NCBI RefSeq assembly: GCF_000723185.1 | Contig: NZ_CBTY010000011.1 | Coordinates: 39,403 to 103,402, forward strand | Source of the DNA: Candidatus Nitrosotenuis uzonensis | GTDB lineage: Archaea > Thermoproteota > Nitrososphaeria > Nitrososphaerales > Nitrosopumilaceae | Reading direction: 5' to 3' | DNA: 64,000 nt | Part shown: positions 13,382-43,500 of the stretch, piece after piece | Layout of the letters: each line of letters begins with the position of its first letter | Position numbering within the stretch: position 1 is the stretch's first letter | The notes under the pieces: generated by a model | What the model was told of the DNA's origin: nothing | Seen by the model: the letters and a program-made list of their open reading frames with translations, nothing else | Database searches by the model: none | Program-made: the position numbers and the translations under genes

Positions 13382-14185
13382 TTGTTGGCAACAGAGGCCC
13401 AAGAATTACCAGAAATCGGCGAGATCGTAGTAGCCACGATAACAAAGCTCACAGATCACGGTGCATATGTCAGCCTTGATGAATATGGTGGACTGCAGGG
13501 ATTCTTGCATGTATCTGAGATTGCGCCAGGCTGGGTTCGCTCCGTCAGCAAGTTTGTCAGAGAGGGAGAGAAAAAAGTACTTCTTGTCAAGAAGGTAAAC
13601 CCGAACAGATCTGAGATAGACCTGTCACTAAAACAGGTCTCAAAAGAGCAGCAAAAGAAAAAGTTACTAGAGGTAAAGAGAATCGAGAAAGGCCAGACGC
13701 TTATGCAGGCAGTTAAGGATTCTGCTGGCATCTCTGATAAGGAAGTAGAGAAAATCGAAGATGCAGTATTTACAAAATATAATTTCGTTTACGATATGTT
13801 TTTGGATGTAGTCACAAAAGGAATATCTGCAATCGAGGAGCTAAAGCTACCAAAGAAGGTGTTATCTGCAATCGAGGAGGCAAGCTCTAAGATAAAACCA
13901 CCGTCAGTTGAGATAAGGGGAATCTGCGAGATTACATGCAACCGCTCAAACGGCATTGAGGTCATCAAAAACGCCATCCTGGAGGCCATTGCAGGACAAG
14001 AGTCCACCATAAACGTCACATATATTGGAGCCCCAAAATACAGGCTGAGCGTAAAGGGGCAGGACTTTAAGACTGCAGAAAGGACACTAAAGCCAATTCT
14101 GGAGAAAATACAAAAAGCAATAGAGAAAAACAACGGAACGTTCAGCTTTACAAGGGAAGAATCCAAGAAGACTAGAGAGAGTTAG
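13382..14185 (+). CDS. Translation initiation factor aIF2 subunit alpha, 267 aa
   Basis: The alpha subunit of the heterotrimer that brings Met-tRNAi to the ribosome. It has the N-terminal S1 OB-fold ('GEIVVATITKLTDHGAYVSL'), then a helical domain, then the C-terminal alpha-beta domain that contacts the gamma subunit. It starts at a pair of TTG codons (13382/13385). An AT-rich box near 13353-13363 fits a leaderless start. Nop10 follows after 2 nt, the classical archaeal aIF2 alpha-Nop10 pairing. The gamma subunit is at 17929-19191. Confidence 0.95.
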   Translation: MLATEAQELPEIGEIVVATITKLTDHGAYVSLDEYGGLQGFLHVSEIAPGWVRSVSKFVREGEKKVLLVKKVNPNRSEIDLSLKQVSKEQQKKKLLEVKRIEKGQTLMQAVKDSAGISDKEVEKIEDAVFTKYNFVYDMFLDVVTKGISAIEELKLPKKVLSAIEEASSKIKPPSVEIRGICEITCNRSNGIEVIKNAILEAIAGQESTINVTYIGAPKYRLSVKGQDFKTAERTLKPILEKIQKAIEKNNGTFSFTREESKKTRES

Positions 14186-14187
14186 CC

Positions 14188-14352
14188 TTGAAATTCCAGA
14201 TGCGCAAGTGTCCCCAGTGCAAAAGATACACTCTGAAGGACGACTGTGAAAAATGTAATGCCAAGACAGTTACAGTGCACCCTGCAAAGTATTCTCCTGA
14301 CGATAAATATGCACGTTATCGCATAATGGACAAATTCAAGGAATCTAGTTAA
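14188..14352 (+). CDS. H/ACA RNP protein Nop10, 54 aa
   Basis: A small zinc-binding component of the H/ACA pseudouridylation particle. The frame starts at TTG 14188 (ATG 14200 is a possible alternative) and includes 'RKCPQCKRYTL', 'CEKCNAKT' and then 'HPAKYSPDDKYARYR', which is diagnostic of Nop10. The two CxxC pairs form the zinc ribbon. It sits 2 nt after aIF2 alpha and overlaps the convergent oligosaccharyltransferase gene by 8 nt. Confidence 0.93.
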   Translation: MKFQMRKCPQCKRYTLKDDCEKCNAKTVTVHPAKYSPDDKYARYRIMDKFKESS

Positions 14353-17008
14353 CTCGTATTGAGATTATTCTTGCGCTTTCAGTGTCCATAGGCTGATCCT
14401 TGGGGTTAGTCTGAAGGGCCGCAATCTTGTCCACAACATCTTTGCCTTCTATTACTTCGCCGAACACTGTGTACTTGCCATCAAGCCATGGTGCGTCGCC
14501 AACCATTATGAAGAATTGAGATCCGGCGCTGTTAATGTCAGAGCCGCGCGCCATAGATACTATGTACTTTGTGTGCTTTATGTTACTTAGCTCCGCATTT
14601 ATAGAGTATCCTGGTCCTCCCGTACCCCAAGTCTGTGGCGGTTCTGACTTTGTGTTAGGATCTCCTCCCTGAATCATGAAATCGGCTATTATCCTATGGA
14701 ATAGTGTTCCATCATAAAAGTTCGAGTTTGCAAGCTTTACAAAGTTTGCAACTGTGTTTGGAGCCACATCAGGCTTTAACGCTATTACTATATTGCCATG
14801 GGGCGTTGAAATTGTGGCAGTCTGTGTTTTGAGTTCAGATGTTTTTTCAGGCTCGCCTTGTTGTTGTGTGGTGGGAGGCACATGATTATCTGGAACGTAA
14901 TTCTTGTTTACTTCATAAATCAGAACGCCATTGATGGGCCCAGAATTACTTCGTAAAAAGCTACTTGAAATGTATGCTAATTTGAACGGTCCTGTTGAAT
15001 CTTCTGGAAATTTTATATCATCAGAATAAACTGGCGTAAAACCTGGGAGATACGAATCAGCTTGTCTTTGGTTTGGAATGTCAACGTATGCAAGTGTTGT
15101 GAACGGTATTAGCCTGCCTAGCAATGTTTCGTTCCAGAATTCAGGCGTAGCACTAAGACCGTCACTGTATAGGTATCTTGTCTCATCGTATCCTCCAATT
15201 CGCATAAACCACTGTTTTTTACTTTCATCGCCTCCCCCTTGTACAAGGAAAAGCGGTGGCTCTTCGTTGTTTATGCGCTGGGCTGCAACATAAATCAGAA
15301 TGTAATCTGCATCCATCTGTTGTAAAAGATTCCAAGCTTCATCAGGTGAGCTTAAAAGTATTCTTGCTAGTTGTTGTATTCTCTCCGTACTCAAAGTTGC
15401 ATTGTCGGCAAGAGATGTTCTTTCCCCCAACGTGGTAATCCAGTAACCATAGTCCCACCAAGCAGCAATCACAGCATCTTTAGGAGTATTATTTTTAATC
15501 CAATTCATTGCGTCAAGCCAATCGGTTGTGGCAACATTGTAATTGCTTCCACCATTTAGAATTGTAGGTGGAGCTTTTGCACCGCTAACCCAGTTGGTTC
15601 CAACAGGTATCATTAGTGGCATAATAAGCAAGATCGTGATTATCACTGAATATGATATTTTGAGTGTTTTGGGATGGCCACGTATTATTTTTTTATTTTG
15701 CTGTCTTTCCGGTCTAAACATTTCTTTTGTAAGTATTGCTAGTCCTACAGAACTGAGTATTATAAGACCCAATGATGAAAAAAGCTCCAGTCTTACAAAT
15801 GCAGAGCTTATGTAGGCGCCCAGTAAGCCAAAGATCAATGCAAATGCATGGACGTCTCGTCTTTGATTATCTACATTTAGAATATTCCTAAAGATAAGCC
15901 AAGACCCAATTCCTCCAAAAATCATAATCACTGAATGGAACAAAAATGATTGGAATATTGATGTGGTAGCATGTTCTGCCACAGAGTCAACTAATGGATC
16001 AATTGTTGTTAAAAACGGATTTACAGCATTCAGATATCTGAAGCTTGGCATATTAAGAACCCCGGATGAGAGTATTGCAATTCCTGCAATAATTATGGCA
16101 ATCAGAAGTAAAGCAGAGTTTCGATTTTGTTTCTGCGGATTAAGTTTTTGAATGAATGAACACGCCACAACAAAAGCGGTGGACCCTATAAGTATGAGTC
16201 CGTTTGGCTTTGTAAATAGATCCAGTCCAGGTCTTTCAAATGGCATAGTTGCAATTACTGTACCTAGCAGAAAAAGAGGCATCGCCCATGCGAGGAATTT
16301 GCCATCCTTTCTTAGAAATGGAAGTGTCATTATGTACATGCCTATTGGCAATAAAAGAAACTCGCTGCCTCCCCAAGCGGAGAAAGAAAATCCAAGGAAT
16401 ATTCCTCCTCCAATTAGCTTTACTGCAGCTATACGCTTTGATGTGGATTTGAGGCCGCTAAGAAAAAGATACAATGCCAAAAGACCATAAAACAGTCCTA
16501 ATGGTTCGGATTTGAACCATCCAATCGTGCCTCTTGTAATTACAGGTAGGGATACTGAGTAGAGCAGTGCCGCAAAGAGACCCGCTGTTGTTCCACCTAT
16601 TACTCTGACCAGCGCAAATATGATTATAGCTGTAAGCGAGCCAAATACAACCGGAAAAACTATTGTAAATCCATACAGATCCGAGCCTCCTGCAAATATC
16701 TGATAAGTGATGGCTGCTGTGATGTGCAACATGACTTGAGAAGTAGCAGAGATATCTCTCCCTACTGGATACCAGCTCATGTCATCATGCCATGTAGAAT
16801 ATTCTGCAAGGCCGTTCTCTACGATGAATTTGGTTGCCCTATAGTTGAAGAACGGATCAAACTCGTTTAGCTGGAATCCATAATCTGCTGCTTGCGACCT
16901 TATCATGGCAGATATGCTAAATGAGAGAGAAAGTACGCCTATTATCAACAGATGATGTAGTGAGAACTCGAAATTTCCTATCTTGAATAGGGTTTTGTTA
17001 GAAAGCAA
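14345..17008 (-). CDS. aglB: AglB/STT3 oligosaccharyltransferase fused to a C-terminal cyclophilin domain, 887 aa
   Basis: The catalytic enzyme of archaeal N-glycosylation, moving a lipid-linked glycan to Asn. It has an N-terminal multi-span membrane domain to about residue 470. Catalytic acidic motifs are 'EFDPFFNYR' (D51) and 'WHDD' (73-76), and the 'SVAE' loop is at 342-345. The sequon-reading WWDYGYW is at 517-523. After a linker rich in Pro, Gln and Thr, residues about 730-887 are a complete cyclophilin peptidyl-prolyl isomerase. Its active-site positions are intact (R772 in 'FHRII', F777, Q780, Q831/F833 in 'SQFFI', W841). Because the STT3 C-terminus lies outside the cytoplasm, the isomerase would work on the extracytoplasmic face. 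The open frame is unbroken across the junction. Confidence 0.93.
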   Translation of the reverse strand: MLSNKTLFKIGNFEFSLHHLLIIGVLSLSFSISAMIRSQAADYGFQLNEFDPFFNYRATKFIVENGLAEYSTWHDDMSWYPVGRDISATSQVMLHITAAITYQIFAGGSDLYGFTIVFPVVFGSLTAIIIFALVRVIGGTTAGLFAALLYSVSLPVITRGTIGWFKSEPLGLFYGLLALYLFLSGLKSTSKRIAAVKLIGGGIFLGFSFSAWGGSEFLLLPIGMYIMTLPFLRKDGKFLAWAMPLFLLGTVIATMPFERPGLDLFTKPNGLILIGSTAFVVACSFIQKLNPQKQNRNSALLLIAIIIAGIAILSSGVLNMPSFRYLNAVNPFLTTIDPLVDSVAEHATTSIFQSFLFHSVIMIFGGIGSWLIFRNILNVDNQRRDVHAFALIFGLLGAYISSAFVRLELFSSLGLIILSSVGLAILTKEMFRPERQQNKKIIRGHPKTLKISYSVIITILLIMPLMIPVGTNWVSGAKAPPTILNGGSNYNVATTDWLDAMNWIKNNTPKDAVIAAWWDYGYWITTLGERTSLADNATLSTERIQQLARILLSSPDEAWNLLQQMDADYILIYVAAQRINNEEPPLFLVQGGGDESKKQWFMRIGGYDETRYLYSDGLSATPEFWNETLLGRLIPFTTLAYVDIPNQRQADSYLPGFTPVYSDDIKFPEDSTGPFKLAYISSSFLRSNSGPINGVLIYEVNKNYVPDNHVPPTTQQQGEPEKTSELKTQTATISTPHGNIVIALKPDVAPNTVANFVKLANSNFYDGTLFHRIIADFMIQGGDPNTKSEPPQTWGTGGPGYSINAELSNIKHTKYIVSMARGSDINSAGSQFFIMVGDAPWLDGKYTVFGEVIEGKDVVDKIAALQTNPKDQPMDTESARIISIRVN

Positions 17009-17121
17009 TTGATTCTATCCTCGAATATGCGCTTATTACTCTTTTGGGCTTGCGCCTTGCATCAGAATACAAATCATGGCAGAAAAATTTAACTTTGGGA
17101 GCATACATTCGTGCATATAAC

Positions 17122-17568
17122 TTGATTTTACAAAGCCCTGCATTTGAGGATGGAAAAGAAATCCCAAAAAAATACGGATACAAAAACGGTAATGCCAGTC
17201 CACCCCTCAAGATAAGGGACGTTCCAGAAGGAACAAAATCACTTGTTCTTATAATGGACGATCCTGATGCAATGGGCGCAGTAGGCAAATTATGGGTTCA
17301 CTGGATAGTCTGGAACATCGATCCAAACACTGCAGATATAGCAGAATCTACAGTTCCAAGTGGCGCAGTACTTGGGATGACAGACTTTGGCCAGATAGGA
17401 TATGGCGGGCCTGCACCACCTGACAAAAGGCACACATACATCTTCAAATTATACGCACTGAATTCTAGGTTATCTCTTCCAAGTGGAGCTACAAAAAAGC
17501 AAGTTGAGGAAGCGATGCAAAATCACATCATTGCGCAAACTTCACTATGTGGGACGTTTGCACCATAG
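17122..17568 (+). CDS. YbhB/PEBP (Raf-kinase-inhibitor-like) protein, about 148 aa
   Basis: A phosphatidylethanolamine-binding-protein fold with unknown ligand in prokaryotes. Conserved blocks are 'SPAFEDGKEIPKKYG', 'SLVLIMDDPDA', 'WVHWIVWNI' and 'YGGPAPPDKRHTY', which carry the anion-pocket Asp, His and Pro residues. The open frame extends back to 17044, but the family's N-terminus matches the TTG at 17122, and an AT-rich box at about 17088-17098 lies 25 nt before it. It is divergent from the aglB fusion gene. Confidence 0.88.
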   Translation: MILQSPAFEDGKEIPKKYGYKNGNASPPLKIRDVPEGTKSLVLIMDDPDAMGAVGKLWVHWIVWNIDPNTADIAESTVPSGAVLGMTDFGQIGYGGPAPPDKRHTYIFKLYALNSRLSLPSGATKKQVEEAMQNHIIAQTSLCGTFAP

Positions 17569-17570
17569 AA

Positions 17571-17936
17571 TTACTCTAGGACTATCTTGTTATTTGAGAT
17601 AGAGATCACCGAGCCTCCAGATTTTTTTAATTTTGATTTGAGCTCCTTGTCCATCGTGGCCACTATGCCACCATGCTTTTTTATATATGAGACAAATTCC
17701 GCATCCGCAAATCTTCCGCCAAGCTTGACTGTCTTGAATGTCTTTATGTAGGAGAGCGTAGCTTCTGCGGCCGATTTTTTTTCCTGATTTTGTGCAAGCT
17801 TGGCCAGCTCTGCAAGTACCGTGTCAGGCACTACAAACTGAATGCTGCCTATCTCAGCATCAATTGATGATAGGTTCTTTATTCTGTTATTAGCTAGATG
17901 AATTAGAAAGCTGGTATCGCATATTACCTCAACCAA
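17571..17936 (-). CDS. PIN-domain RNase, Fcf1/Utp24-like, about 121 aa
   Basis: A PIN-fold nuclease. Acidic active-site positions are seen in 'VICDTSFL', 'DTVLAELAKL' and 'TMDKEL'. The archaeal COG1412 group with this gene order next to aIF2 gamma is linked to rRNA processing, so an 18S/16S-maturation type role is likely. The preferred start is TTG at 17936, overlapping the aIF2 gamma stop; GTG at 17948 is an alternative. The open frame continues to 18005, but those residues lie inside aIF2 gamma. It is translationally coupled to aIF2 gamma. Confidence 0.8.
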   Translation of the reverse strand: MVEVICDTSFLIHLANNRIKNLSSIDAEIGSIQFVVPDTVLAELAKLAQNQEKKSAAEATLSYIKTFKTVKLGGRFADAEFVSYIKKHGGIVATMDKELKSKLKKSGGSVISISNNKIVLE

Positions 17937-19191
17937 CTGTGCCTGCACCAATGAGTCTCCATCTGTCTTCGATTTTTCTGCTGATTGCCACGTTGCTGTT
18001 ATCAAAGAGGCATACCGGTCTTTTGAACTGGACCTCGATTTTCTCTGCCTTTACCTTGCTAACCTTGGCAAGAACTGGTGCGGTGCCAATGTTAAGGCGT
18101 AGTGATTCCCCTGCCTGTATTGGTGTTACCTTGATGTCATTTACAGTTCCAACCGCAGAATCAAACAGATTTACCTCAAGCCTTGCCTCAGACGAGTTGT
18201 CAGGTAAGGTTCCCGGCTTGCCTATTACAGAGCCTACTAGCGAATCACTGCGCGTCATGGAAGGGTCCAGTTTTGTTCCTATTGCAACTAGGCCGCCCGG
18301 CTTTACCGAGTCGACTATTCCTGCCGCAGTTCCAAGCGAAACAATCTCAGTTATGATTGGCTCGTAGCTGTTCTTTTTAGGATTTACAATTCCTGGTTTG
18401 ATTTCAACTTCCTCGCCGACTGAGAACAGTCCCTGTGTGAGGCTTCCCCCTATGACACCACCCTTGATTTCCTTGATTCTGGTGCCAGGCTTGTTAACGT
18501 CAAACGATCTTAGGACATGCATTACCGGCTCTTTTGACTCTATTCTTTTTGGCGTCGGTATTGTATCCTCTATTGCTCCAATGAGGGCATCTATGTTCAG
18601 GCGGGACTGCGCTGAAATTGGAATGATTGGAGATTTTGCGGCCTTGGTTCCCTTGACAAACTTGACAATATCAGAATAGTTTGCAGTTGCCTCCTTGTAT
18701 GATATTAAATCCACCTTGTTTTGGACTATTACTATCTGCTGTATACCAAGTATCTGTAATGCCAGAAGGTGCTCCTTTGTTTGCGGCTGCGGTACTTTTT
18801 GGTTTGCCGCAACAAGAAGCATTGCTCCGTCCATCAATGCCGCACCGGAAAGCATGTTTGCCATCAGGCTTTCGTGACCAGGGCTGTCAACGAAGCTTAC
18901 TACTCGCGATAGTTCGCTTTCTGCGCCGCAGTTGGGGCATTTTGGCGTTGTCGAATATCCAAGAGGAGGCTCGCAGTTCTTGCACTTGTAGAATGCGGCA
19001 TCAGAATAACCCACTCGAATAGTGATTCCCCGTTTTAGCTCCTGGCTGTGAATGCTGGTCCATGTACCTGTAAGAGCCTGAATAAGTGTGGTCTTGCCGT
19101 GGTCTACATGACCTGCAGTGCCGATGTTCACGCATGGTTGGTATCCGTATTTTTTTACATACCAGTCAGGAAGTGTGTCGCGCCAGTGCAT
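17929..19191 (-). CDS. Translation initiation factor aIF2 subunit gamma, 420 aa
   Basis: The GTPase core of aIF2 that binds Met-tRNAi. G motifs are G1 'GHVDHGKTT' (27-35), G3 'VDSPGHE' and G4 'QNKVD'. A zinc knuckle with two CxxC pairs ('CKNC' and 'CPNC') sits within the G domain, followed by two beta-barrel domains. Length is typical. The gene lies between S6e upstream (about 30 nt) and the PIN gene downstream, the usual archaeal translation/ribosome-biogenesis group. Confidence 0.96.
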   Translation of the reverse strand: MHWRDTLPDWYVKKYGYQPCVNIGTAGHVDHGKTTLIQALTGTWTSIHSQELKRGITIRVGYSDAAFYKCKNCEPPLGYSTTPKCPNCGAESELSRVVSFVDSPGHESLMANMLSGAALMDGAMLLVAANQKVPQPQTKEHLLALQILGIQQIVIVQNKVDLISYKEATANYSDIVKFVKGTKAAKSPIIPISAQSRLNIDALIGAIEDTIPTPKRIESKEPVMHVLRSFDVNKPGTRIKEIKGGVIGGSLTQGLFSVGEEVEIKPGIVNPKKNSYEPIITEIVSLGTAAGIVDSVKPGGLVAIGTKLDPSMTRSDSLVGSVIGKPGTLPDNSSEARLEVNLFDSAVGTVNDIKVTPIQAGESLRLNIGTAPVLAKVSKVKAEKIEVQFKRPVCLFDNSNVAISRKIEDRWRLIGAGTVG

Positions 19192-28454: not shown

Positions 28455-29912
28455 TTGAACTATGAAGAGGTAATGAAGCTTGCACTGGAGCGAGGATTTT
28501 ACTTTCCAAGCTGCGAGATCTATTCTGATGCACAGGCAGGATTCTGGGAGTATGGTCCGTCCGGCGTGAGTATGAAGACAAAATTCATCGAGTTGTGGAG
28601 GCGTGAGCTTGTAAGGCGTGATGCCATGCTGGAAATTGACGGCTCGCAGATAATGTCAAAGTCTGTCTTTGAGGCATCTGGTCATCTGGCAAGCTTTGCT
28701 GACCCGATAATAAAATGTAAAGTTTGCGGCCTTAACTTTAGAGCTGATAAGCTGATATTTGATATTACAAAAACAGAGATTCCAGAATCTGCCGATCTAG
28801 CAGATTTTGATAGGGCAGTCTCTGAGAAGAATATCCGATGTCCAAAATGCAAAGGCGAATTTGAAAAGGCGCGCAAATTCAACATGATGTTCAAGGTGGA
28901 AATAGGTCCAGAGGCAGAAGCTGCATATCTGAGGCCGGAGACGTGTCAGTCGATCTTTGTTGATTTTCCAAGGCTGTTCAAGACCATGAGGGGCAAGCTG
29001 CCCCTTGGAATTGCCCAAATAGGAAAAAGCTTTAGAAATGAGATCTCGCCTCGTCAGAGTCTGTTAAGGCTGCGAGAGTTTTATCAGGCAGAAATTGAGG
29101 TCTTTTGCAATCCGAACAAACTAGACAAACTTGAGAGATTTTCCGAGATAGAAAACACCACAATCAGAGTATGGATTGATGATGAGCTAAAAGCGATGAG
29201 CTGCAAACAGGCTGTAGACAGTGGTGTTCTGCCAAACAAGTTTGTAGCATATTATCTTGGGCTTTTAACAGAGTTTTATGAAAAGACAGGCATCGATATG
29301 ACAAAAAGTAGATTCAGAAAGCTTGGCGAAAAAGAAAAGGCATTCTATGCTACTGTGGCATTTGATTTTGAAGTGCAGACTACGATAGGCTGGCTTGAGC
29401 TGGTGGCGTGTAACTATAGATCCGATTATGATCTGACCAGTCATGCAAACAAGAGTAGGGAAAAATTTGAGGTCTTAGATGATGAGCAAAAGGTTCTTCC
29501 TCATGTATTTGAGATATCCATGGGCATAGACAGAAGTCTGTATACAATATTGGAGCATAGTCTACGTGATGAGAAGGAAAATGAAAGAATTGTGCTTTCG
29601 ATAAAGCCATATCTTGCACCCGTACATGTTGGAGTATTATCCTTGGTCAAAAAGGACGGCCTCAAGGAGAAAACCGATGAGATTTACATGAAGATAAAGC
29701 GAAGATATGATGCCTTTTTGGATCATTCCGGCGCAATTGGGCGAAGATACAGAAGGCTTGATGAGATAGGTGCTCCGTTTGCAATTACAATAGACCACCA
29801 GACACTGCAGGATGATACCGTCACACTGAGAAAACGCGATTCAATGCAGCAAGATCGGATAAAAATACAGGATCTTGATACTGTGCTATTAAAAGAGACT
29901 GCCTTTCCTTAG
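28455..29912 (+). CDS. glyS: Glycyl-tRNA synthetase, archaeal/eukaryotic alpha2 type, 485 aa
   Basis: A class II synthetase charging tRNA-Gly. Motif 2 is 'IGKSFRNEISPRQ' and motif 3 lies near 'EISMGIDRSLYTIL'; the N-terminal 'SCEIYSDAQAGFWEYGPSG' is typical. A zinc-ribbon-like insert has 'CKVCGLNF' and 'CPKCKGEF'. The C-terminal anticodon-binding domain begins near residue 385. The start is TTG at 28455. The stop overlaps the convergent giant secreted-protein gene by 4 nt. Its cognate tRNA-Gly(CCC) is 8 kb upstream. Confidence 0.95.
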   Translation: MNYEEVMKLALERGFYFPSCEIYSDAQAGFWEYGPSGVSMKTKFIELWRRELVRRDAMLEIDGSQIMSKSVFEASGHLASFADPIIKCKVCGLNFRADKLIFDITKTEIPESADLADFDRAVSEKNIRCPKCKGEFEKARKFNMMFKVEIGPEAEAAYLRPETCQSIFVDFPRLFKTMRGKLPLGIAQIGKSFRNEISPRQSLLRLREFYQAEIEVFCNPNKLDKLERFSEIENTTIRVWIDDELKAMSCKQAVDSGVLPNKFVAYYLGLLTEFYEKTGIDMTKSRFRKLGEKEKAFYATVAFDFEVQTTIGWLELVACNYRSDYDLTSHANKSREKFEVLDDEQKVLPHVFEISMGIDRSLYTILEHSLRDEKENERIVLSIKPYLAPVHVGVLSLVKKDGLKEKTDEIYMKIKRRYDAFLDHSGAIGRRYRRLDEIGAPFAITIDHQTLQDDTVTLRKRDSMQQDRIKIQDLDTVLLKETAFP

Positions 29913-32900
29913 CTTATTCCAAACGATGTGTCGATTCTAAAGTTAGAGTCTACTGTCTGGCGCTCTGCAAAGAATATGTCTATTTGATAATCCTTGCCAG
30001 TAACCAATCCCATTGATTTGAGCTGGTTCGAAGTCACAGTAGCTGAGCTTTTTGGGTGTACACCGCCAAGATCGATTACAAGCTTTTTGTCTATGAACAC
30101 CCACACATCATCATCTCCAGTAAACTTGAACATCTGACCATCTGAGAACCTGAATGTGGAGTGAAGCTCTAGTGTAAAATGATAGTTGTGAGTCCGCCCC
30201 TCGTTTCCGAACAATTCCCCATCAATTGGGAAAAAGCCGGAACTACCAGAATCGAAGGTGTAAATGCTAGGATCAGATGATTGTGTTAGTGTGAGTGTGA
30301 AAGGTTTTGCAGAATTAACCTTTGATACGTCGTTGTACCATTGCTCAAAGTTCTTTTTTCCGTTGGTAGATATTGTATCTTTATTGAAGGCTGGCTTGCC
30401 GTCAGAGCCTAGAGTAGTTTTTACTATTCCGGGCTCTACTGCGTTGCATATTCCACCAGCGCATCCCTGCTCCATATCAGGGTGAGCGGCCTTAAAGTCG
30501 CGAATTGTTCCAGTTAGCGTAACCGTGGTTGGGGCAGGTCCGGGTGGAATTATAACAGTATTGGGATCTCCTCTTTCACAGTTAAGTATGGTATTATTGC
30601 CGCTATGACCCCTGCATTCATCGATTCCGTTGCCTCCGTCAATTAGGTCATCGCCGTTGTTGCCAAAGATTTTATCATTGCCATCTTCTCCGTACATAAA
30701 GTCGTCGTCGTTGTTTCCGTATAGCTCATCATCTCCAGCTCCGCCATAAATCGTATCGATTCCGTTGTTGCCATTTATTCTATCGTTGCCATCGCCTCCA
30801 TAAATGCAGTCATTGCCGTTGAGTCCTTCTATTTTGTCATCGCCTCCAAGGCCGAATATGAGATCGTTTCCTTGCGTTCCACGTATGTTCTCACCCCTGT
30901 TCGTACCATGGATCACCTTATCATATGCTGACTCTGGGAGGCCACAGAATAATGGCGTTGGAGATTCAGACTTTATTGTAACCACTGCAGTGTCTGTAAG
31001 TCCGGCTCCGTTGGATGCCTCATATGTAAGATAATCAATTCCAACAAAGCCGGTATTTGGAGTGTATGTTATTGTTGTACCTGAAATTGTTGCAACGCCG
31101 TTAGAAGGCTGCCTCACTATTTGTATGGAGGAGGCTGATACATCGTTTGCAAGCACGTTAATTGTTACTGGGATTGCTGTGGTTGATGCCAAGTCATCTA
31201 CTGCATCTACTACCTTACATTGCTGTGCTGGGACTGGTATGAATTCGATGTTGGTTGAAATTCCCAGATTAGACTGGACTGTATGTCTTTCTGCAAAGAA
31301 CAGTGCAAAATCGTATGTCTGGCCAGCGGTCAGTCCTAATGTATCCAGATTTATTGTTCCGGTTCTTGGTGGTTGGACCCCGCCCTGATCAAGTGCTAGT
31401 TTACCATCTATGAATATCCAGATATCATCATCTCCTGTTATGGTTATTGTCTGACCTGGCTGGTAGACAAATTGTGCATATATTTGGTATGTAAAGTGGT
31501 AGTTGTGCGGATTTCCTTCATTTCCGAAAAGCTGACCGTCAATCGGGAAAAATGAATTATTACTGTATACAAACTTGCTTGGATCTGCCTCGGATGGAAC
31601 CAGAGTGATATCATATGCGGTGCAGTCATTGACTGTGCTTACGTGGTTGTACCACTGGTTAAAATTGACAATTCCTGTGGTGGTTATTGTAGCTGGGTTG
31701 CCGTTGTAGATTGGCTCACTGTCAGCTCCGATGAGATTTTTTACTATTCCATCATCATCAGAAATCACATATTCGAAATCCGGATGTGATTTCTTAAAGT
31801 CTCTAATTATTCCAGATAATGTGACCTCAGTTGGTGCAGGTTTTACAAAAGTAGTCACTGTTGATACATTATTGCTAGGGTTTTCATCAGTTGTTTGTGG
31901 TGTTCCAATAAACACTTCTGCACTGTTTGTGTGGTCTCCTGTTGCGGTGCGCTCAATTGATACTCTGATCGATTTTGTTTGTGTGGAAGCCGGTCCCATA
32001 TCACCATAGCTACAAACTACGAGTCCTCCTGCATCAAGCTGACAATCCGGATCCGATAAATGATCAATAGTGTTATCAAGGAATACAAAATCATCAGGAA
32101 GCTCATCTTGTACAAATACGCCGACAGCTGTTGCTGGACCCATGTTAGTTACTGTAAGGTTGTATGTCATGATGCTTCCTGCTACAACCGTTGCAGAGCC
32201 GGTTTTTGTTAGCGATATGTCTGTTTCCGATATTACATCAATTGGATCGGAGGTAGCGTTGTTGTTAGATGGGTCAGAGTCGGAGGAGGTCGTAGTGACG
32301 CTTGCGGTGTTTGTTATTGTTCCTAACGCATTAGAATTTACTGTACCATTAATAGTTACTACATGCACCCCAGCAGGCGGTATCGAGTCGGGTATAACGC
32401 AGGTTATTTTGTGAGTTTGAGAATCATAGGTACATTCCGGAGAAGAGCCAAGTATGCTAAATGTAACTTCAACTGGGAGATTATCGGTTATTATTACGTT
32501 ATCGGCATCAGATATTCCATTATTAGTAACTGTGATTTCGTATTGTATAGAATCTTGTCCTGCAGTTACCACGGTAACATCAGATTGTTTTTCTAACAAA
32601 AGATCAGATTCTTTTATCACTGTAGTTGATGTACTGTCTGTTTGTGTTGTTGCACAATTATCGCATGTAACGCTCATGGTATTTGTAAATGGATTTTGTG
32701 CATTAGCACCAACTGTCACGGTATATTTTATTTGAATAGAATTGTTGTTGTTAATTGTATATGGACCGCAGATTAGCTTGGCTGAAGTATCAGGGTTGTG
32801 TTCAACCTGACAAACATTTGGCGCCGGCTGGGACGTTATCTGTACGTCAACAGTTCCAATTGGCAACATATCGGTTATGGTTACGCCATGAGCGTTCGAA

Positions 32901-34411
32901 GTTCCTACCGCAGAGTTGTCTAGTATAATTGTGTAATCAATTGAACCATCTCCGGCAACAACAGAACTGGGAGTTGATGTTTTAGAGATGGTAGAAAATA
33001 CGATTGCAGGATTGATGTCTACTTTGACGGAATGGGTTGCAAATGTATCTGCGTTGCTGACAGTCGCAGTATTTACGGCCTCACCACTGGCTCCAGGTCT
33101 TACCTGTCCTTCAAGCTCAACTATGATGTAATCGCCAGCATCAAGTGTGCCAAATCCTGTGCAGTCAACACGGAATTGATCACCGACTCTGACACACGTA
33201 CCAGCGGCAGTAGATGTTCCTGCACTCACATCAAACACAGTAGAAGTATATGATAGATTGCCATCTACCAGAACGGATTCGATTTGGGCATTTCCTGTCT
33301 TTGGAAAGTCGTCACGAATTGTTATTCCAGATGTCGGTTCGTTACCGCTATTGGTTGCTGTAATTGTGTAAAGTACTCCGTCTCCAGGCAATACCGATGT
33401 TACATTCGCGGTTTTTATGATTGTAAATAAGGCATCCGGTGGAGATGTAGTCAAAGTCATTATTGCAAGGCCTGAGGGAAGCTCCAAGAATCCAGACGAT
33501 ACATCCACAGGAGAAGGAGATACACTAGATAAATCTAGTCTGTATATTTTGCCCACGTCAACATCGGTGTTTGTTGGTTGGTCACTTACGTAGAGATCAC
33601 TGCCTATAGGATCAACCACTAGAGCGTATGGAAGTGATAGCTTGCCTGAAGAGTTGTCTGAAAATTCTGAAGTAGTATCTGATACGGTATCAATTTTGAG
33701 GACACCCGGGCCAAAACCGAACGTGCCTGCTACATATACATTAGTGCCATGAACTGCAATTCCCCATGAATTGACAAGTGATACTCCTAATGCACCCTCG
33801 TATACTAGTACTGCAGTATAGTCAGGCGATGGTGAGCTTGACAGATCTATCAGATATATTTCGCCGTCTGCCGCACCTGCATCAAATATGTATAGTTTGT
33901 TATCAGTAATGGTCATGTCACGTATTTCAGAAAACTCGTGATCGATTGGTACAAGCGTTGGTGTTGCTGGTAGCGTACCAGAAGGGTCTACGCTGTAAAT
34001 TAGATTATCAGAGTCTGCTACATAGAGAATGCCATTGCCATCTACCGCAATACCTACAAGAAATTCAAATTCATCACTGGTTACGCTTATTACGTTACTG
34101 GCCGGCGGTGCTGGATCTGGCTGTCCTGCTGTATCAAGATTAATTTTAGAAATTCTTGTAGAGTCTGCTACATATACAGAGCCTCCAAATGCTGCTATTC
34201 GTTCTGCAAACTTGATAGTGCCAGTATTATCTATTGGGGCTGTGTGTCCAGTATTCGGATTTACAAGATATGTCATGCCAGTGCCAAATCCACCGCCTGA
34301 TGAATCAATAACAACCACGCGCAAGTCTGAGGATGGAATTGCCAAAGCTTGATGAGCACCAAAAATTGTCGCTACAAGTCCAAAAATCAGCAGAATTGAC
34401 GCATTTCTCAT
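29909..34411 (-). CDS. Giant secreted adhesin-like protein: beta-propeller, four DUF11, two fibro-slime domains, RTX repeats; 1500 aa
   Basis: A signal peptide (MRNASILLIFGLVATIFG...) leads a modular extracellular protein. Residues ~28-320 are NHL/SMP-30-like propeller repeats ('GIAVDGNGILYVADSDN'). Residues ~324-855 are four DUF11-type Ig-like repeats ('YTITATNSGNEPTSG', 'YEITVTNNGISDADN' and so on). A fibro-slime (PA14-related) domain is at ~860-1064 ('ITGDDDIWIFIDGKLAL'), then a cadherin-like 'VLANDV' module at ~1067-1147. About eight RTX nonapeptides (GGDGND type, ~1160-1284) follow, then a second fibro-slime domain (~1294-1500; 'FTGDDDVWVFIDKKLVI'). No C-terminal anchor is seen. Calcium-dependent folding outside the cell and a carbohydrate- or surface-binding role are inferred from the modules. 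Confidence 0.88.
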   Translation of the reverse strand: MRNASILLIFGLVATIFGAHQALAIPSSDLRVVVIDSSGGGFGTGMTYLVNPNTGHTAPIDNTGTIKFAERIAAFGGSVYVADSTRISKINLDTAGQPDPAPPASNVISVTSDEFEFLVGIAVDGNGILYVADSDNLIYSVDPSGTLPATPTLVPIDHEFSEIRDMTITDNKLYIFDAGAADGEIYLIDLSSSPSPDYTAVLVYEGALGVSLVNSWGIAVHGTNVYVAGTFGFGPGVLKIDTVSDTTSEFSDNSSGKLSLPYALVVDPIGSDLYVSDQPTNTDVDVGKIYRLDLSSVSPSPVDVSSGFLELPSGLAIMTLTTSPPDALFTIIKTANVTSVLPGDGVLYTITATNSGNEPTSGITIRDDFPKTGNAQIESVLVDGNLSYTSTVFDVSAGTSTAAGTCVRVGDQFRVDCTGFGTLDAGDYIIVELEGQVRPGASGEAVNTATVSNADTFATHSVKVDINPAIVFSTISKTSTPSSVVAGDGSIDYTIILDNSAVGTSNAHGVTITDMLPIGTVDVQITSQPAPNVCQVEHNPDTSAKLICGPYTINNNNSIQIKYTVTVGANAQNPFTNTMSVTCDNCATTQTDSTSTTVIKESDLLLEKQSDVTVVTAGQDSIQYEITVTNNGISDADNVIITDNLPVEVTFSILGSSPECTYDSQTHKITCVIPDSIPPAGVHVVTINGTVNSNALGTITNTASVTTTSSDSDPSNNNATSDPIDVISETDISLTKTGSATVVAGSIMTYNLTVTNMGPATAVGVFVQDELPDDFVFLDNTIDHLSDPDCQLDAGGLVVCSYGDMGPASTQTKSIRVSIERTATGDHTNSAEVFIGTPQTTDENPSNNVSTVTTFVKPAPTEVTLSGIIRDFKKSHPDFEYVISDDDGIVKNLIGADSEPIYNGNPATITTTGIVNFNQWYNHVSTVNDCTAYDITLVPSEADPSKFVYSNNSFFPIDGQLFGNEGNPHNYHFTYQIYAQFVYQPGQTITITGDDDIWIFIDGKLALDQGGVQPPRTGTINLDTLGLTAGQTYDFALFFAERHTVQSNLGISTNIEFIPVPAQQCKVVDAVDDLASTTAIPVTINVLANDVSASSIQIVRQPSNGVATISGTTITYTPNTGFVGIDYLTYEASNGAGLTDTAVVTIKSESPTPLFCGLPESAYDKVIHGTNRGENIRGTQGNDLIFGLGGDDKIEGLNGNDCIYGGDGNDRINGNNGIDTIYGGAGDDELYGNNDDDFMYGEDGNDKIFGNNGDDLIDGGNGIDECRGHSGNNTILNCERGDPNTVIIPPGPAPTTVTLTGTIRDFKAAHPDMEQGCAGGICNAVEPGIVKTTLGSDGKPAFNKDTISTNGKKNFEQWYNDVSKVNSAKPFTLTLTQSSDPSIYTFDSGSSGFFPIDGELFGNEGRTHNYHFTLELHSTFRFSDGQMFKFTGDDDVWVFIDKKLVIDLGGVHPKSSATVTSNQLKSMGLVTGKDYQIDIFFAERQTVDSNFRIDTSFGIS

Positions 34412-34578: not shown

Positions 34579-37500
34579 CTATTCTGATGTCATAGTAAGG
34601 AGTTTTGTGTATGTTGCTCTGTATTTTGCCTTTACCTGTATATCCTCCGTTGCGTGTGCCTCTGGTACTAGTCCTCCATCTGATTCAAGCGTGATACTCC
34701 AGTTGCCAACTATTGGGTCAATTGATGTGATTGAGAATCTCTCAAGTGGATTGTCCTGACCAGAGTATCTTATTCTGTAGACTTGTCCCTCAAGCTCAAC
34801 GCTCACAGAATTGCCTCTGTTTCCTGCGGTGGATCCGTTGACCATGCAGGAATCTGATTGACCTATGACGCATGTACCATCGGGTGATACTACCCTATAA
34901 TGTAATGATGGATTGACATCAGATGAGTATAGCAAACCCACTCTTGCAACCATCTCACCTGCTGCCACCACAGAGTTTACCAGTACTGGTTCTGATATGG
35001 AATATGTTCTTGTCTCTTGGAATGTTCTTAGTGTTGCTTGGGCGGTTTCGATTGTCATATCATACAGGTTAATTTGGGCTTTAACCGAATATTCTGATTC
35101 TGCTTGTGTGTTAGGTACCTTCCATTCTAGATTAACTACGGATTGTCCGTTGTTGAAGAGTTGCTCTGGTGAAGTGTAGACAATCTTGCCATCGATTACC
35201 AAAGACACTGAGCCGAACAATGGCTTTTCACTCTTGTTGAATATGTATGCTGTAGGCTTGTAGGTGGTTCCCTGTGCCTTGCTTGGGGTTGTATCAAGCT
35301 CTATTCTTGCATCAAGGTCATATGTAGGCTTGACACCAAGGAAGTATCTGTCCGAGGTCTGTATCTTTTGTTCCTCGTTTATTACATGAATCCAGTATAT
35401 GATGGCTGGGGCCTGCAGGAATGAAGACGGTATTTCAGCTGATGCAATGTATGTATTTGTGATGTTTTGTAGAGGTACCACGTTCATTCTTACTGCTGCA
35501 TAGTCAGTATAGTTGTCTCCTGCGGTGATAACCCTTAGCTCTGCCCTTTGGATTGTTGTGGGGCTATCAAGTATTGAGCTGAATTTGATCTTGGCATCAT
35601 GTTCCACATACTGGTTTACTTCGTATGCACTGACGGGCTTGCTGCCGCCTACTTGGAACTTGATGTCAAATATGTTCGGTCTGCCTGCCTCTACAGTTGG
35701 CTCTGAGATCATCTCCTTGTCAAGGTCTCTCATCGGATTAACAATGATGGTTTCTCTGCATTGGTAGATGTTTGCCAGATATGAGGCCGATACTGCGGTC
35801 CTTCCTTCTGCCTGCTCTGCTGTGACTATGAAGAAGTTCAGATTCGGGTCAAGTGGCGCTTCATAGACATACCTGCTTATCTGCAATATCTTGTTGGCCT
35901 CAAGATATGGCTGCTCTCTTGCAAGTGTTGCAGTGTAGACTTCTTTTTGTGGTGTTCTTATCTTTACGGCTGGCGCTGGCGCTTCTGTTCCGTGTACTCC
36001 TATAATTATTCTTGCCATGTTGGTATCACAGACATCGTATGTGATTTGGTATATGATGATAGGCTGGATCAGCCTTCCTCCAAATCCTTGTCCGGTGGTT
36101 CCAGCCGTTCCAACAGCACCTCCACCACCGGAGCTTCCACCACCGCTGCCAGTGCTTCCGCCTGGAGTGCCTGGTGAGCCTCCAGGACCACTTGGGCCGG
36201 TGGTTCCACTTGATGGTGCAGATAGACTGAATCTGCTAAAGTGATCTACGGTCAGGTCGAGCTCACATGTGTTTGTGTTGATTGATACTGCATTACCTAC
36301 TTGGATTCCCTGCGTCTTCCATGTATTGGATGTAGTATCGAACATGTATCCTGTCAACACTGGACATCCATTAGCATCAGATGCAAGTGAGCTAGATTTT
36401 GCCACTTGTACTTTGAGTACTGGCTTTGTTTTGTGGTTGGCTGTCTGCGACCAGTCGTATCCTATTCCATCTTCTGCATGACGATATTTTACCTCAACAA
36501 ACAGCCTGACATTGTTAGATATTCCGTTTGTTCCTACTGCGGACGGTACTGTTGGAGCACTCTCTATTACTAACCAGTCACCAGGCGCTGCAGTTGGGAT
36601 TACGCCATCTTTTGATTGTACGCTGAGCTGTTTGAGTCCTCCCCATGAAGGCATAAGATCTGTTTCCACGGGTAAGATCATTGTCTGTCCTGGAATTATT
36701 TTGTTCATGGGTGGTGTCATGACAAACTGTGGGGATGTTCCAGACGGAGCTGTAACTATGCTCGGGATAACAGAAGTTATCTCTGGAGATTCTGGGACCG
36801 AGTAATTCTGTATTCCTATTGTATTTTGTATGGTCTTGCCTGAAGATAGTGATGAAAATGATATGCTCAGCTTTACGGATGCTTGTTTTGTTATTGCACT
36901 GTTAAGCAATGTTGTGGCATCTTTTCCTACGGATATTATTGGTGGTAGATCTTGCACTTTGTCAATTACATGTGTAGATGTTCCGTTCACGATGGTTGCA
37001 GAATAGGTACTGGTCCATTTGTCATAGACAGTACTATTCAGTGATGGTGCCGTAGTGATCACAGTTGGTGCAATTGTTGATAGAGGAGTGGATTGTGGAG
37101 ACACTCTGAACACTGCAGTTCCGTTTATCTGGGTTCTGTGTACTTCATGTATGGTACTATTGCCCAATACGTTGTATGTGGACGGAATTACGGTCATGGT
37201 AAAGTTGTATGTACCAAATGGAACAAGATCAAATGTGACTCGTCCTGGAATGCTGTCGTTGTCATTTGATACGTTATCTACTATTAGTAACGGTGTATTT
37301 CCTCCTGTTGGGTTTGGATAGACAGTATAGGATGCACCCGGAACTAGATTATTAGATAGATCTCGTGCTTCTATCTTTGCTCCTCCCTTGAATAAGATGG
37401 TATCACTCATACCCAATCTTTCACGTAATGATTTTGTCAGAACTGCAAGTTGCTGCTGATCGTCAGGCACATCAAATACACCTAATCGTTCGCTGAGTAA

Positions 37501-40500
37501 CTTGACATTATTAGCAGTGCGTGCAGCGTTGTCTGTCATTCCTAGATTTTCTGTCAGTGACTTGGTGACGGTCTTGGCTGTGTTGTCAGTGATTCCCAGG
37601 GATTCGGTGAGGCTCTTTGATGCGGTCTTGGCTGTGTTGTCAGTGATTCCAAGGGATTCTGTGAGTGACTGTGTTCTGGTTGCTGCGGCAAATACGGTAT
37701 CTTTCATTCCGAGGGACTCTGTGAGTGACTGGAATTGTGTAATAGATGTAGCTACGGTGTCAGTGATTCCAAGGGATTCTGTGAGTGACTGTGTTCTGGT
37801 TGCTGCGGCAAATACGGTATCTTTCATTCCGAGGGACTCTGTGAGTGACTGTGTTCTGGTTGGAGTAGTTATCACGTCTGAAATACCAAGTTTTTCAGTA
37901 CGGAAGATTGTAGAAGTTTTGATGATAGTATCCGTAATGCCTAGTTTTTCATTTAATGAAACAGAGAAGGTTTTTGACGGTTTTATTGGCCACTGTACCA
38001 CTTGGAATCGGTAATTTTGAGTATTGGCACTATCAGAAGTAATAAGAACAACATTATTTGTGGAAGTTAAATTGAATGCTATATGTCCAACTGGAAAGCC
38101 GGTTCCAGTTCCTGAACTACGTGTATTTTCTCCCATGATAGATGTTGTGCTCAAGCTTCTAACAGTACTTATTGAAATGTTCTGAGTAAATTCTTCAGAG
38201 CCAGCTCCGCTTCTAGTACCACTTTTGTGTTGAACAATCATTGCATCTGGTCCGGTTTGGCTGTTTGATACCACCCAAGCAACTCCTGTTATGGAGCTGG
38301 CAGGTGATGCAGTATCCTCCAAATCAAATGTAATTTGGTTAGTTGCACTAAAGTATACTTCTGATCCTGCCTCATCAAGACCAGTCGACGTGATTGCAGA
38401 TCTGTGTTGATATTGGAAGAATGCTCGTTCTATGGAACCGACATCAGATATGCTAACTGTTTGAGCGCTTGTTGCAGTATATCCATGTTGTATTCTTTGT
38501 ACAGACCAATTACTGCCAGTGAACTCTACTATTGCGTAGCTGAGGGGGTTTGCGTTGCTATTAGAAATCCCTCTTGTAAATCTGGCAGTATCAGAAGCTG
38601 CGAGCCATTCTGCAGTGTTTAGTGATGAAGACCACCTGGTTGAACCAGCATGAACGCTGCTTTGTCCTGTAATGAAAACAAAGATGTCATTATCATCTAC
38701 TACTCCAGATACGGTTGGTGTATCTACCGTGAGTCCGGAAGCACTGTGTGTGACAGTACCCACTTGTCGTACTTTTATGGCGTTTGCACTTGTTGGGCTT
38801 CCCTGATAATCAACTATTTGCCAGCATATTCGATCATCATTTGTAGTACCTGCTCTTGTGAACGTAATAGAACCTCCTGCAAAGTCAGGATCACTAATGT
38901 AAGCAGTTACTCTGTCTGCGTTTTGTGTTCCACCCCCAGATGTTCTACCGATTCCTTGCTGTCTTGTGTCAACGATTCTTACAAATGCCTCTCCTTGCGG
39001 GTCGGTATAATCAGTTCCTGCAAATAACGTCTTGGATGTACTTCCGTTGCTTATGATTGTACATCCATTCTGCGTGTTAAACTCAATTCCTGGGAACTTT
39101 TGTGTTGTAATTGCACTGTTAAATCCTAATTTTTCTGTCAAAAATATATTCCTAGTAATTTTAATTGCATCCCTAATTCCGAGTTTTTCCAAAAGTGATA
39201 CAGAATGAGCTTTACCTGCTACCAATGAATCGGTAAGACCTAACCTTTCTGTAAGATGTAAATCGGTAACCTGTCTTGTCAGTCCAACATTAGCATCAAG
39301 TATTCCAAGTCTTTCGTTGAGATTGATTGTTGTTTTCTTTACAGTGATTGTGTCTTGTATGCCCAGTCTTTCGTTAGCGGTTTGGATTTTAGTTGAGATA
39401 ACGGTTTTAGTGATTCCCAGGTTCTCTGTGAGTGTTTTTATCAGATGCTTGTTTACAAGTAATAAGTCACGCATTCCAAGCTTGTCTGAGAATTGTTTGC
39501 TTATGTTCTTGGTAAATGAGATAGAATCCTTAATTCCCAGTTTTTCTGATAGTTTTGCCTTAAAGTTGTAGGTTACTGTCATTGTAATTGCACTGAATAA
39601 TGATCCACGTTCGGATGGGTTTACTGTTGGTCTTACCTCATCATCTAATTTCCATCCCAACGCAAACCATGTCTGACCATTATCGATTGCAGTCTGCAGA
39701 TTATTGTCAGCGCCTGAGCCGAGATCTATGGGTCCTCCCGATGTTGCTGCACATACTATGCCAGTGGCATATTGTGTGCCATTTCCAATATCATCCCATA
39801 GAATTTGTGCATCTGGTTCTGGAGATGATTGTGTTCCACCAAGTGTATGCGAGGTAGGTCGTATTTCAATTGCCCGTACTTCACAAGTTCTTGTGGATGC
39901 AAATGATGCTGTTGTAAATGAAGTTTTGACGTCAGTGATTACAGCTCTACTGTCAATTGAGCTGATATTGTATTCTACCGCAGTTCTGTAACATCCGTTA
40001 GCGTTGTTGGTTCTTGTAATGGAAGCCCTTGACTGTGATGGTTGGGATACTGTTGCAGGAGTTTTGCATACTGGGTTTCCATTTGTAGTTGTACCCGGAG
40101 CCTGCACTTGAACGAATGTACCACTACTGAATACTACTGTTGGATCTAAAAACGCAGTCTCACCATTTTGCAATGGTTGTGCGATTTCTAGGAATTCCAC
40201 CGTGGTTTTCAGCTTTCCATTTCTGTTTTCAAGATTTATGTTCGAGAATTCCTTGGATGCCTTGGAAAAATCAAATGCGAGTGATGCCTTGCCGGTCTTT
40301 TTAAATTCAATGGTTTCGGTTACCATATCAGGTTTTTTCTTGCTTAGTTTTTCATTCTGTCTTAGTTCTTTTACCTCAGAGTTTGACATGTCGTTGAGGA
40401 GTTTCTTTAATTGCTTTCTTGCCTTGTCTGCAAACTTTTGTGCAATTTCTGGCTTTGATGTTATTATTTCATCACCAAGATCTGCCTCATCTGATTCTAT

Positions 40501-43500
40501 GTTCTCAAGTTCATTGACAAATCCGTACTTTGTGTTTGTCTTCTCTGGATTTTTGTTAGTATAATACAGGAAGGATTCAAGTGGTTGGTCGACTTTTTTG
40601 CCATATGTGGTGATAAATGTACCATCTTTGTTCTCTCTTATTGCATTAATGAAGAATCCAGTGGAATTGGAGAATACTTGAATGTTGCAGGAATTTTTGT
40701 TGATTTGCGATTCTATCCATTGGTTAGAGCCTGCCTGAGCCTCCATTAGTTTCCAGTATTTCTTTCCTATTGCAAGCTGTGAGTTTGCATCAATCTTTCC
40801 TTTTTCGTAAATACGAACTGAACAGTCTGCCTTGTCAAATACGAATGGAATTTGCATAGAATCATAGATTATTTCATTTGGAGTTTCTGTCACTATGTGC
40901 TCTACGTATTTGTTTGTTGAAGGATCTAGTATCCATTCTGGGAGACCGAATGTGATCTGTCCTGTTCCATTTTCATATTCAACCTTATAGTAATCCTTTC
41001 CCCTTTCCTCAAAGATTATGCTGTCAGCTGTTATTTGTGGAGATAATTTTTGAATGCTTAAGCTATCTGCAATTCCAAACATTTCATCGTAAATTGTATT
41101 ATTTGAAGGCAGTACGTTTTTGACCAATTCTATGGAATCTGAAAGACCCAAATAGTTACTGGAAGATATGCTTGGTTCGGTAGTTGAAGTTAAGCCAATA
41201 ACATTTTCCATGCCAAGGTTTTCATTAAGCGATATGTTTGAGAGTTCGTTTATGATCGACGTATTATCTGTAGACTCTGTAATTTGTAGTGATTCAGATA
41301 TAATTTGCGTGTAATTTGTCGGTGTCGTTACTTTTGGAATCAGAGTCAGTGTTACAATATCAGTAAATGAGAGTATGTTTTCGGTGAATAAGGGCAACTG
41401 TTTTGATTCATTTTTTATTTCTGATAGATACAGTTGCTTAATTTCCTCACTAGATAGAGAGCGGTTGTAAATTATTGCATTCTCAATTATTCCAGAGAAT
41501 TTGTTGGACATGTATAACTCCCCTTTTCTTGTGTACATGTAAGCGCCGATTATGATATCACTGTCAGTGTTTGCCATTTCCGCAGGAGCTACATCCAGTT
41601 TACCATTTGACATTGAAAACGAGCTGGAGAGTATCTTGCTTGCTTGCAATTCACCATTAACATAAAGGAATATTCTTGTTCCATTTACAACAGCTGCAAT
41701 ATGAGATGGATTTTCTATTTTGCTTGTACCATACACATCAGTCCATCTTATACCGTCAAATACTGAAAATACTGCAGTACGTTTAGGATCGATAACATTG
41801 TTTATCGACAATGAAAATGATCTTTCCATTGATACAATAGTAAATTCATCAGAGAATTGGTTGTATATTGGATCAACCCATGCAGATATTGTGATCTGGT
41901 TTGTCTGATTTAATGTAGGTAGCGATACAAATTGTGTCATGTTAGTGTTAAGCGTGCCATTGATGTTGGTTTGATTGAGCAAGTTGATTGGGTCTAGCTC
42001 GATTTTCTCGATGTTCGGAACGATCACGAGTTTTGATAATATGGAGGGAAGCGTCTTGCTGTATATCTTGAGGATCTGGTCAGGTGTTAGATAGCTATCA
42101 TAAATTTCGACATAGTCAAGACTTCCAGAAAATATACCCTCAGAATTGTCAACCTTTCTTCCATCCAATGCTGCACCTATTGCAACATCAGAGTCTGTAC
42201 TAGATACGCTTGGAGTCACTTTTTGTACTGTTCCAGTAGAATCGACAGTAAGTGATTGTGTTGTCTTTTTTGTATTAGACAGAGTTCCGTTTACATAAAT
42301 TGAGATATTTGTACCGTTAAATGTTGCTGCAATATGTGTCCAGTTCTGACCAATTTCCGAATTTGTCTGTATTTGGTGCCATTTTATGCCGTCAAATACA
42401 GAGAAAATTGCTTTATGCTGAGGATATAAAATATTATTAAGGGTTAATTCGAATGTTTTCTCTTTTGATATTATAGTGAATTTTGATGTATCTGATGAAT
42501 AATCCGGCTTGAGCCAGGCAGCAACGGCAATGTTTGATGTATGGTTTGTGTTGTTTCCAGCGTATTTGATAAAACCGCCTTCAAGAACGATTCCAGTCTG
42601 ATTTATTGCAACTTGGCCAAATAGCTGTGAGCCAATTTCAGTAGAGTTTGAGCCCCATGATCTGGTAGCATCCGGTACTATCACTGTACCTAGTGATTTG
42701 TCCGGAGTTGACTCTATCATAGATAGGTCTTCGGTTAGCTCCTTGAGGGTGGTCGAGTTGGATGTGGGGGTGACAGTATTGGTTGGAAGGGGGGTATTTC
42801 CAGTGATTTGAAGGGTCTCGGTTAGCTCCTTGAGGGTGGTCGAGTTGGATGTGGGGGTGACAGTATTGGTTGGAAGGGGGGTATTTGCTTCTGTGGCATT
42901 GGCAGTAGTAATTGAGTCCGTAGTATTGACTGGAAGTAGAAAAACAGGTTCATTAATGGAATCTACTGCTTCCGTTAGATTGGCTTCAGGTATAATCAAT
43001 GTCGTTTCATTTTGTTCATCCACATCCATTGGAGTAAGAGATTGTCTTTCTAGTAAGGCAGGCTCAGTTGTTATTTCATGGTTAGTATCTGTTGTTGCTT
43101 CGTCAACAATTAATTCATCCATGGCTTCAGCATATGCTTCAGGCCAGTACGCCCTCGAGATTGAAACTGGTGTTATAACAGCTGATGATGAAAGGATAAT
43201 TATGAAAATTAATGATAAAACCTTTTTATAATTTTGAATTTTGGTGTTTGGATTTTCAGATCTTACGATAATATAAAATGCAGAAATAGCAAAAACGAGT
43301 AGTAATGATTGGGATTGCCGCTCTATCGAGTCAGTAACATATTGTGTTGGTTGTACAAAGTTTTCAAATTGCAATATTTGTGAAACAGTATTTGTATCAA
43401 ATCCATGATCATAGAAAAATTGTTGTTGTATCTTGAATAATTGTTTGTCATGTTGATGGTTTTGTTCAACATCAAACATATCAAACTGATCACTAGACAA

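Follow-up and report, generated by a model that had tools for sequence, protein, structure and literature searches.

An oligosaccharyltransferase of the AglB/STT3 family and a complete cyclophilin are joined in one chain by a gene of the window analyzed here, a 64,000-nucleotide stretch of the Candidatus Nitrosotenuis uzonensis genome (1.64 Mb, 99.7% complete), whose class is that of the ammonia-oxidising archaea. We think it reasonably probable that this AglB-cyclophilin is a bifunctional membrane enzyme that co-localises glycan transfer and proline isomerisation on surface proteins, an explanation supported by the single frame, the complete domains, their fold, the conserved catalytic residues, and an old fusion kept under selection. 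Both parts are members of known families, and their combination is apparently undescribed. A preliminary description of this DNA had reported an unbroken 887-codon frame at 14345-17008; a frame check bears this out and adds the strand, which that account had not given: the gene lies on the minus strand, and the plus strand of the same interval is full of stops and closed. The start position is common to the orthologues (alignment A1). The features of the gene are these:

14345..17008, minus strand: aglB-cyclophilin fusion gene, a single open frame of 887 codons plus stop, with a TTG start
14894..17008, minus strand: AglB/STT3 part, residues 1-705 (Pfam STT3, human STT3A match, AlphaFold, Foldseek)
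16856..16858, minus strand: D51, first catalytic acidic residue of the STT3 family, in the first outer loop; invariant in 33 rows
15974..15985, minus strand: SVAE, residues 342-345, STT3-family outer-loop motif; S342 and E345 invariant in 33 rows
15440..15460, minus strand: WWDYGYW, residues 517-523, sequon-recognition motif; invariant in 33 rows
14828..14887, minus strand: flexible linker, residues 708-727, pLDDT under 50
14357..14815, minus strand: cyclophilin domain, residues 732-884 (Pfam PF00160 Pro_isomerase, AlphaFold, Foldseek)
14693..14695, minus strand: R772, equivalent of the CypA catalytic R55; present in 44/44 fused copies

The Pfam STT3 profile matches residues 46-281 with E=1.5e-24 (87.7 bits against a curated cut-off of 24.5), and the three motifs lie where the preliminary description had placed them, so that its complete AglB/STT3 stands. 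The best solved relative is human STT3A (E=1.4e-60, residues 21-610), and Foldseek returns STT3A, yeast Stt3, and A. fulgidus AglB as fold matches. Enzymes of the STT3/AglB family transfer a lipid-linked glycan to N-X-S/T, and by this family relationship the fused AglB part would do the same. The protein scores 105.9 bits against the archaeosortase-associated STT3 family of NCBIfam (TIGR04154), which requires 450, and falls outside it. We also observed that residues 1-705 are nearer to eukaryotic STT3 than to the solved archaeal AglB in both sequence and fold score.

The AlphaFold model (33-row alignment; mean pLDDT 80, pTM 0.66) lays out 13 long predicted membrane helices between residues 17 and 466, an outer C-terminal globular domain, the linker, and the cyclophilin, which is confidently modelled over most of its length. 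Past residue 480, no segment has the hydrophobicity of a membrane helix. D51, SVAE, and the C-terminal domain are carried by the loops after helices 1, 9, and 13, which are all odd-numbered and thus place D51, SVAE, and the C-terminus on one side of the membrane; that side is the outer one in every studied STT3. On this predicted topology the cyclophilin would face outside, next to the transfer domain, as had been proposed at the outset.

Among relatives the linker varies from 9 to 85 aa and is rich in S, T, N, and P; a tether of such length and variability does not imply that the two active sites dock in any fixed way. The longest linkers, those of Nitrosocosmicus-like genomes (63-85 aa), are dense in N-X-S/T sites (e.g., L058, L061, and L208), which in L208 form near-identical tandem units. 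In 80 linkers, whose rows are related, there are 115 sequons as compared with 82 (sd 6) in composition-matched shuffles; the window protein's own linker has zero. In the Nitrosocosmicus-like lineage, AglB may glycosylate its own tether.

The cyclophilin domain covers positions 3-157 of the 159-position Pro_isomerase profile (E=6.7e-49; 166.6 bits against a cut-off of 21.7), which confirms that the domain is full. For residues 716-887 the best solved relatives are cyclophilins, with Foldseek TM scores of 0.8-0.9 by target length. Cyclophilins of proven activity share R55, F60, Q63, and F113, and the window protein supplies this set as R772, F777, Q780, and F833. The initial claim that catalytic and pocket residues all match human CypA holds for the six residues then named (R772, F777, Q780, Q831, F833, and W841) but not for the pocket as a whole, in which N102 is replaced by R and H126 by Y. 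Across the fused copies, R55, H54, Q111, and L122 are kept in 44/44, Q63 and F60 in 43/44 each, and F113 in 42/44 (Y in two); position 102 is R or H, and the H126 position is Y throughout. The tryptophan at position 121 that marks the cyclosporin-sensitive type is found in the window protein as W841, but in only 17 of the 44 fused copies, 20 others having F and the rest another residue. Pairwise omega for the cyclophilin part is 0.02-0.12 over the nine pairs that gave a usable estimate, plus a tenth, highly diverged pair, and in most of them it does not exceed that of the STT3 part. Both domains are under purifying selection, which is strong on the cyclophilin part; because of this selection and the catalytic arginine kept in 44/44 copies, the fused cyclophilin is, as judged from sequence, very probably an active isomerase.

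We searched 400 genomes of the class for the fusion. The same single-frame join occurs in 13 congeneric genomes besides this one, including the one-contig genomes G003, G025, and G082, and the search extends it to further families: within the host family it is found in genera g4, g5, g8, g10, g11 (one of two), and g18-g22, and outside it in f5, in genus g31 of f2, and in the majority of f3 genera. Both domains lie in one frame in 36/80 named records, the fused ones including Nitrosotenuis, Nitrosotalea, Nitrososphaera, Nitrosocosmicus, and Nitrososphaeraceae, and the unfused ones including Nitrosopolaris together with Nitrosopumilus, Nitrosarchaeum, Nitrosopelagicus, and Cenarchaeum. The AglBs of these last four genera have an orthologous STT3 part (42-60% identical) but end near residue 705 with no cyclophilin in frame. 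Judging by record names and general knowledge of the genera, most soil and freshwater ammonia-oxidising archaea appear to be fused and marine ones unfused. Beyond the class, none of the 41 cyclophilin-matching genomes from the rest of the phylum has the fusion; their cyclophilin frames, of 100-646 aa, are too short for it. Separately, eight genomes, mostly over 90% complete, lack any match to the STT3 family (G066, G076, G079, G098, and G163 of f2 g23; G123, G146, and G289 of f1 g15), and are ammonia-oxidiser relatives apparently without AglB.

The preliminary description had raised the concern that a linker frameshift, an assembly error, or a chimera of reads had fused two genes. This explanation is vanishingly improbable, because the same join recurs in the 13 relatives of the same genus and in dozens of independent assemblies, complete one-contig genomes among them (one a single contig of 2,527,938 bases), and because purifying selection spans both parts. 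Moreover, the errors that we did see run the opposite way, with a break inside the domain in G346 and a frameshift in MAG TA_20. Chance is likewise excluded by the selection on both domains and by orthologues, 44-76% identical, that run full-length in a single frame in dozens of independent genomes.

A tree of the STT3 part (73 rows, with the cyclophilin left off) places all 45 fused rows in one clade (SH-aLRT 100), which also takes in 12 unfused rows and 3 undecided ones, whereas all outgroups (f4 and f6-f14) are unfused. The fused/unfused label changes 7 times on this tree, compared with 20.7 times when shuffled, and at least 3 of the 7 changes are forced by well-supported branches. Because the two earliest branches within the clade (f2 g31 with f5; f3) are fused, the simplest reading would be one gain followed by up to six losses, and the unfused AglBs of Nitrosopumilus, Nitrosarchaeum, Nitrosopelagicus, and Cenarchaeum are nested in the tree as such losses. 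In a tree of the cyclophilin domain, the 34 fused copies from f1 form one clade (100/98), those of f3 a separate clade (92/88), and the f2/f5 pair sits elsewhere, beside standalone cyclophilins, giving 4 changes. This splitting would suit several independent fusions, but AU tests do not reject a single clade of fused domains (p 0.38 and 0.48) and the STT3 tree gathers every fused row into one; a single origin, although not proven, is the history that we prefer.

The repeated loss of the domain could also mean that the fusion is neutral, a lost stop codon having joined two active proteins with unrelated functions. We consider this improbable, since the fusion, its isomerase site intact, has persisted in two families from the time of their shared ancestor; in addition, the nearest standalone cyclophilin gene lies elsewhere in the host genome rather than beside the aglB fusion, and read-through from a neighbor is not seen today. 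The genes around the fusion are housekeeping genes:

13382-14185: aIF2 alpha
17044-17568: PEBP-like protein
17571-18005: PIN-domain protein
17929-19191: aIF2 gamma

None of the neighbors tested is a glycan-assembly gene. Elsewhere in the window, two very large adjoining genes on the minus strand (34579-43941 and 29909-34411) encode proteins of 3120 and 1500 aa with laminin-G-like, DUF11, PA14, and RTX-type repeats; these are probably giant surface proteins and are possible substrates of AglB.

The losses acquire a further meaning from a second cyclophilin of the Nitrosopumilaceae, a separate protein of ~500 aa that combines a signal-like N-terminus with a cyclophilin and a PsbP-like domain. 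Essentially all of the ~21 Nitrosopumilaceae genomes examined without the fused domain encode an orthologue of it, and no genome examined lacks both proteins, a few incomplete ones being ambiguous. Conversely, the 24 fused genomes without the separate cyclophilin all belong to g4, g8, g18, and g21, while many genomes of g1, g5, g10, and g20 keep both. The host genome also encodes the separate form (L003:1228-2970, C11:150 kb; ~550 aa, with a signal-like start and the PsbP-like domain). At its C-terminus is a GGGCLIATAAYG-type segment, which many other proteins encoded by these genomes also carry; this segment may serve for sorting to, or anchoring at, the surface.

This loss pattern agrees with a requirement for one or more surface cyclophilins, which either protein could satisfy, and it bears on the possibility that AglB is only an anchor for a general extracytoplasmic proline isomerase that has no effect on glycan transfer. 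In favor of such an anchor are the near-universal separate cyclophilin of the unfused genomes, the want of any examined genome without both, and a secreted-looking protein of 470-484 aa with a C-terminal cyclophilin in the Nitrosocosmicus-like genus g24 (L083:78-1529 and L084), which in the domain tree nests inside the clade of the same genus's AglB-fused domains, as if it had arisen as a copy of the AglB domain or undergone homogenisation with it; the domain would then also work off AglB. Yet AglB, and not any other membrane protein, has stayed the fusion partner since the base of the clade, genomes of g1, g5, g10, and g20 often keep both proteins, and the association between the absence of one cyclophilin and the presence of the other is weak, given few independent events and a gain of the separate protein in a single clade. 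We therefore hold the anchor-only explanation to be possible though rather doubtful.

In the bifunctional enzyme that we favor, the AglB part would move a lipid-linked glycan onto N-X-S/T sites of proteins, such as the S-layer protein and multicopper oxidases, as they emerge on the outer side of the membrane; the tethered cyclophilin would isomerise the prolines of these same chains, and glycan transfer and folding would thereby occur at one place. That the two parts share substrates and act together is what we infer. Co-localisation comes in two versions, one in which the isomerase aids glycan transfer and another in which AglB merely stations the isomerase, and the evidence does not discriminate between them; the near-universal separate cyclophilin of the unfused genomes speaks for AglB as carrier roughly as strongly as for a strict tie to glycan transfer. 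Against tight coupling, the cyclophilin domain was dropped several times while AglB was kept, and among Nitrosopumilaceae it is absent only where a separate secreted-looking cyclophilin is encoded. More tentatively, and with considerable doubt, we suggest that the outer-face cyclophilin acts on the chain during glycosylation by AglB, such that proline isomers near sequons set their occupancy.

The known targets come from Nitrososphaera viennensis, which is N-glycosylated, has a single aglB (NSAF about 0.03-0.04), and modifies its S-layer protein and two multicopper oxidases (PMC12153357). If the aglB of N. viennensis is the fused form, the fusion protein has already been detected by proteomics. 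The preliminary description had spoken of heavily glycosylated surface proteins, a claim at odds with this one measured relative, in which glycosylation is sparse, with only five S-layer sites observed, one per 239.8 residues (PMC12153357). In Nitrosopumilus piranensis no N-glycosylation was found (PMC12153357). The AglB of Nitrosopumilus has no cyclophilin domain, and the contrast between N. viennensis and N. piranensis, a single species pair, establishes nothing firm.

If the coupled machine is real, no earlier oligosaccharyltransferase is known in which the same polypeptide includes a folding catalyst, and it would be ancestral to most ammonia-oxidising archaea. The fused soil and freshwater lineages and the unfused marine ones form a natural experiment on the long-standing question of whether N-glycosylation and folding are coupled outside eukaryotes. 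How the surface layer is made also bears on nitrification, as these ammonia oxidisers are globally important and this layer is thought to concentrate ammonium. A literature search found no description of an AglB-cyclophilin fusion, in keeping with the first impression that it was new, although subscription papers may hold a prior mention. A survey of archaeal cyclophilins saw some multi-domain forms and then dropped them (122 to 106); in these the isomerase is at the N-terminus, and AglB is unmentioned (PMC8530231).

Taken by its parts, the fusion protein shares with A. fulgidus AglB (3waj/5gmy/7e9s) the fold, D51, the SVAE-type and WWDYG motifs, 13 helices, and the outer C-terminal domain; it differs in its cyclophilin, which the A. 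fulgidus enzyme lacks, and in an STT3 part nearer to human STT3A and yeast Stt3 by Foldseek E-value. With CypA, PPIL1, and PpiA it has in common a complete domain, the catalytic R, F, and Q, and a hydrophobic pocket, from which it departs by N102R, H126Y, and the joining to a membrane glycosyltransferase. A related archaeon, Nitrosopumilus maritimus, also has an isomerase at its cell surface, the membrane-associated parvulin NmPin, proposed to fold S-layer proteins (PMC4922055); NmPin is of another family and is unlinked to AglB. The nearest functional parallel is FKBP11, an FKBP-type protein located at human OST-A secretory translocons, where, as would be the case here, a prolyl-isomerase fold lies on the outer or lumenal side next to STT3 (PMC12804085). 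The parallel is positional only, because the FKBP11 active site is buried there and its authors argue against isomerase action (PMC12804085). FKBP11 further differs in belonging to another isomerase family and in being a separate subunit recruited non-covalently. In eukaryotes, folding helpers join the oligosaccharyltransferase as separate subunits, whereas this archaeal lineage carries one on the oligosaccharyltransferase itself.
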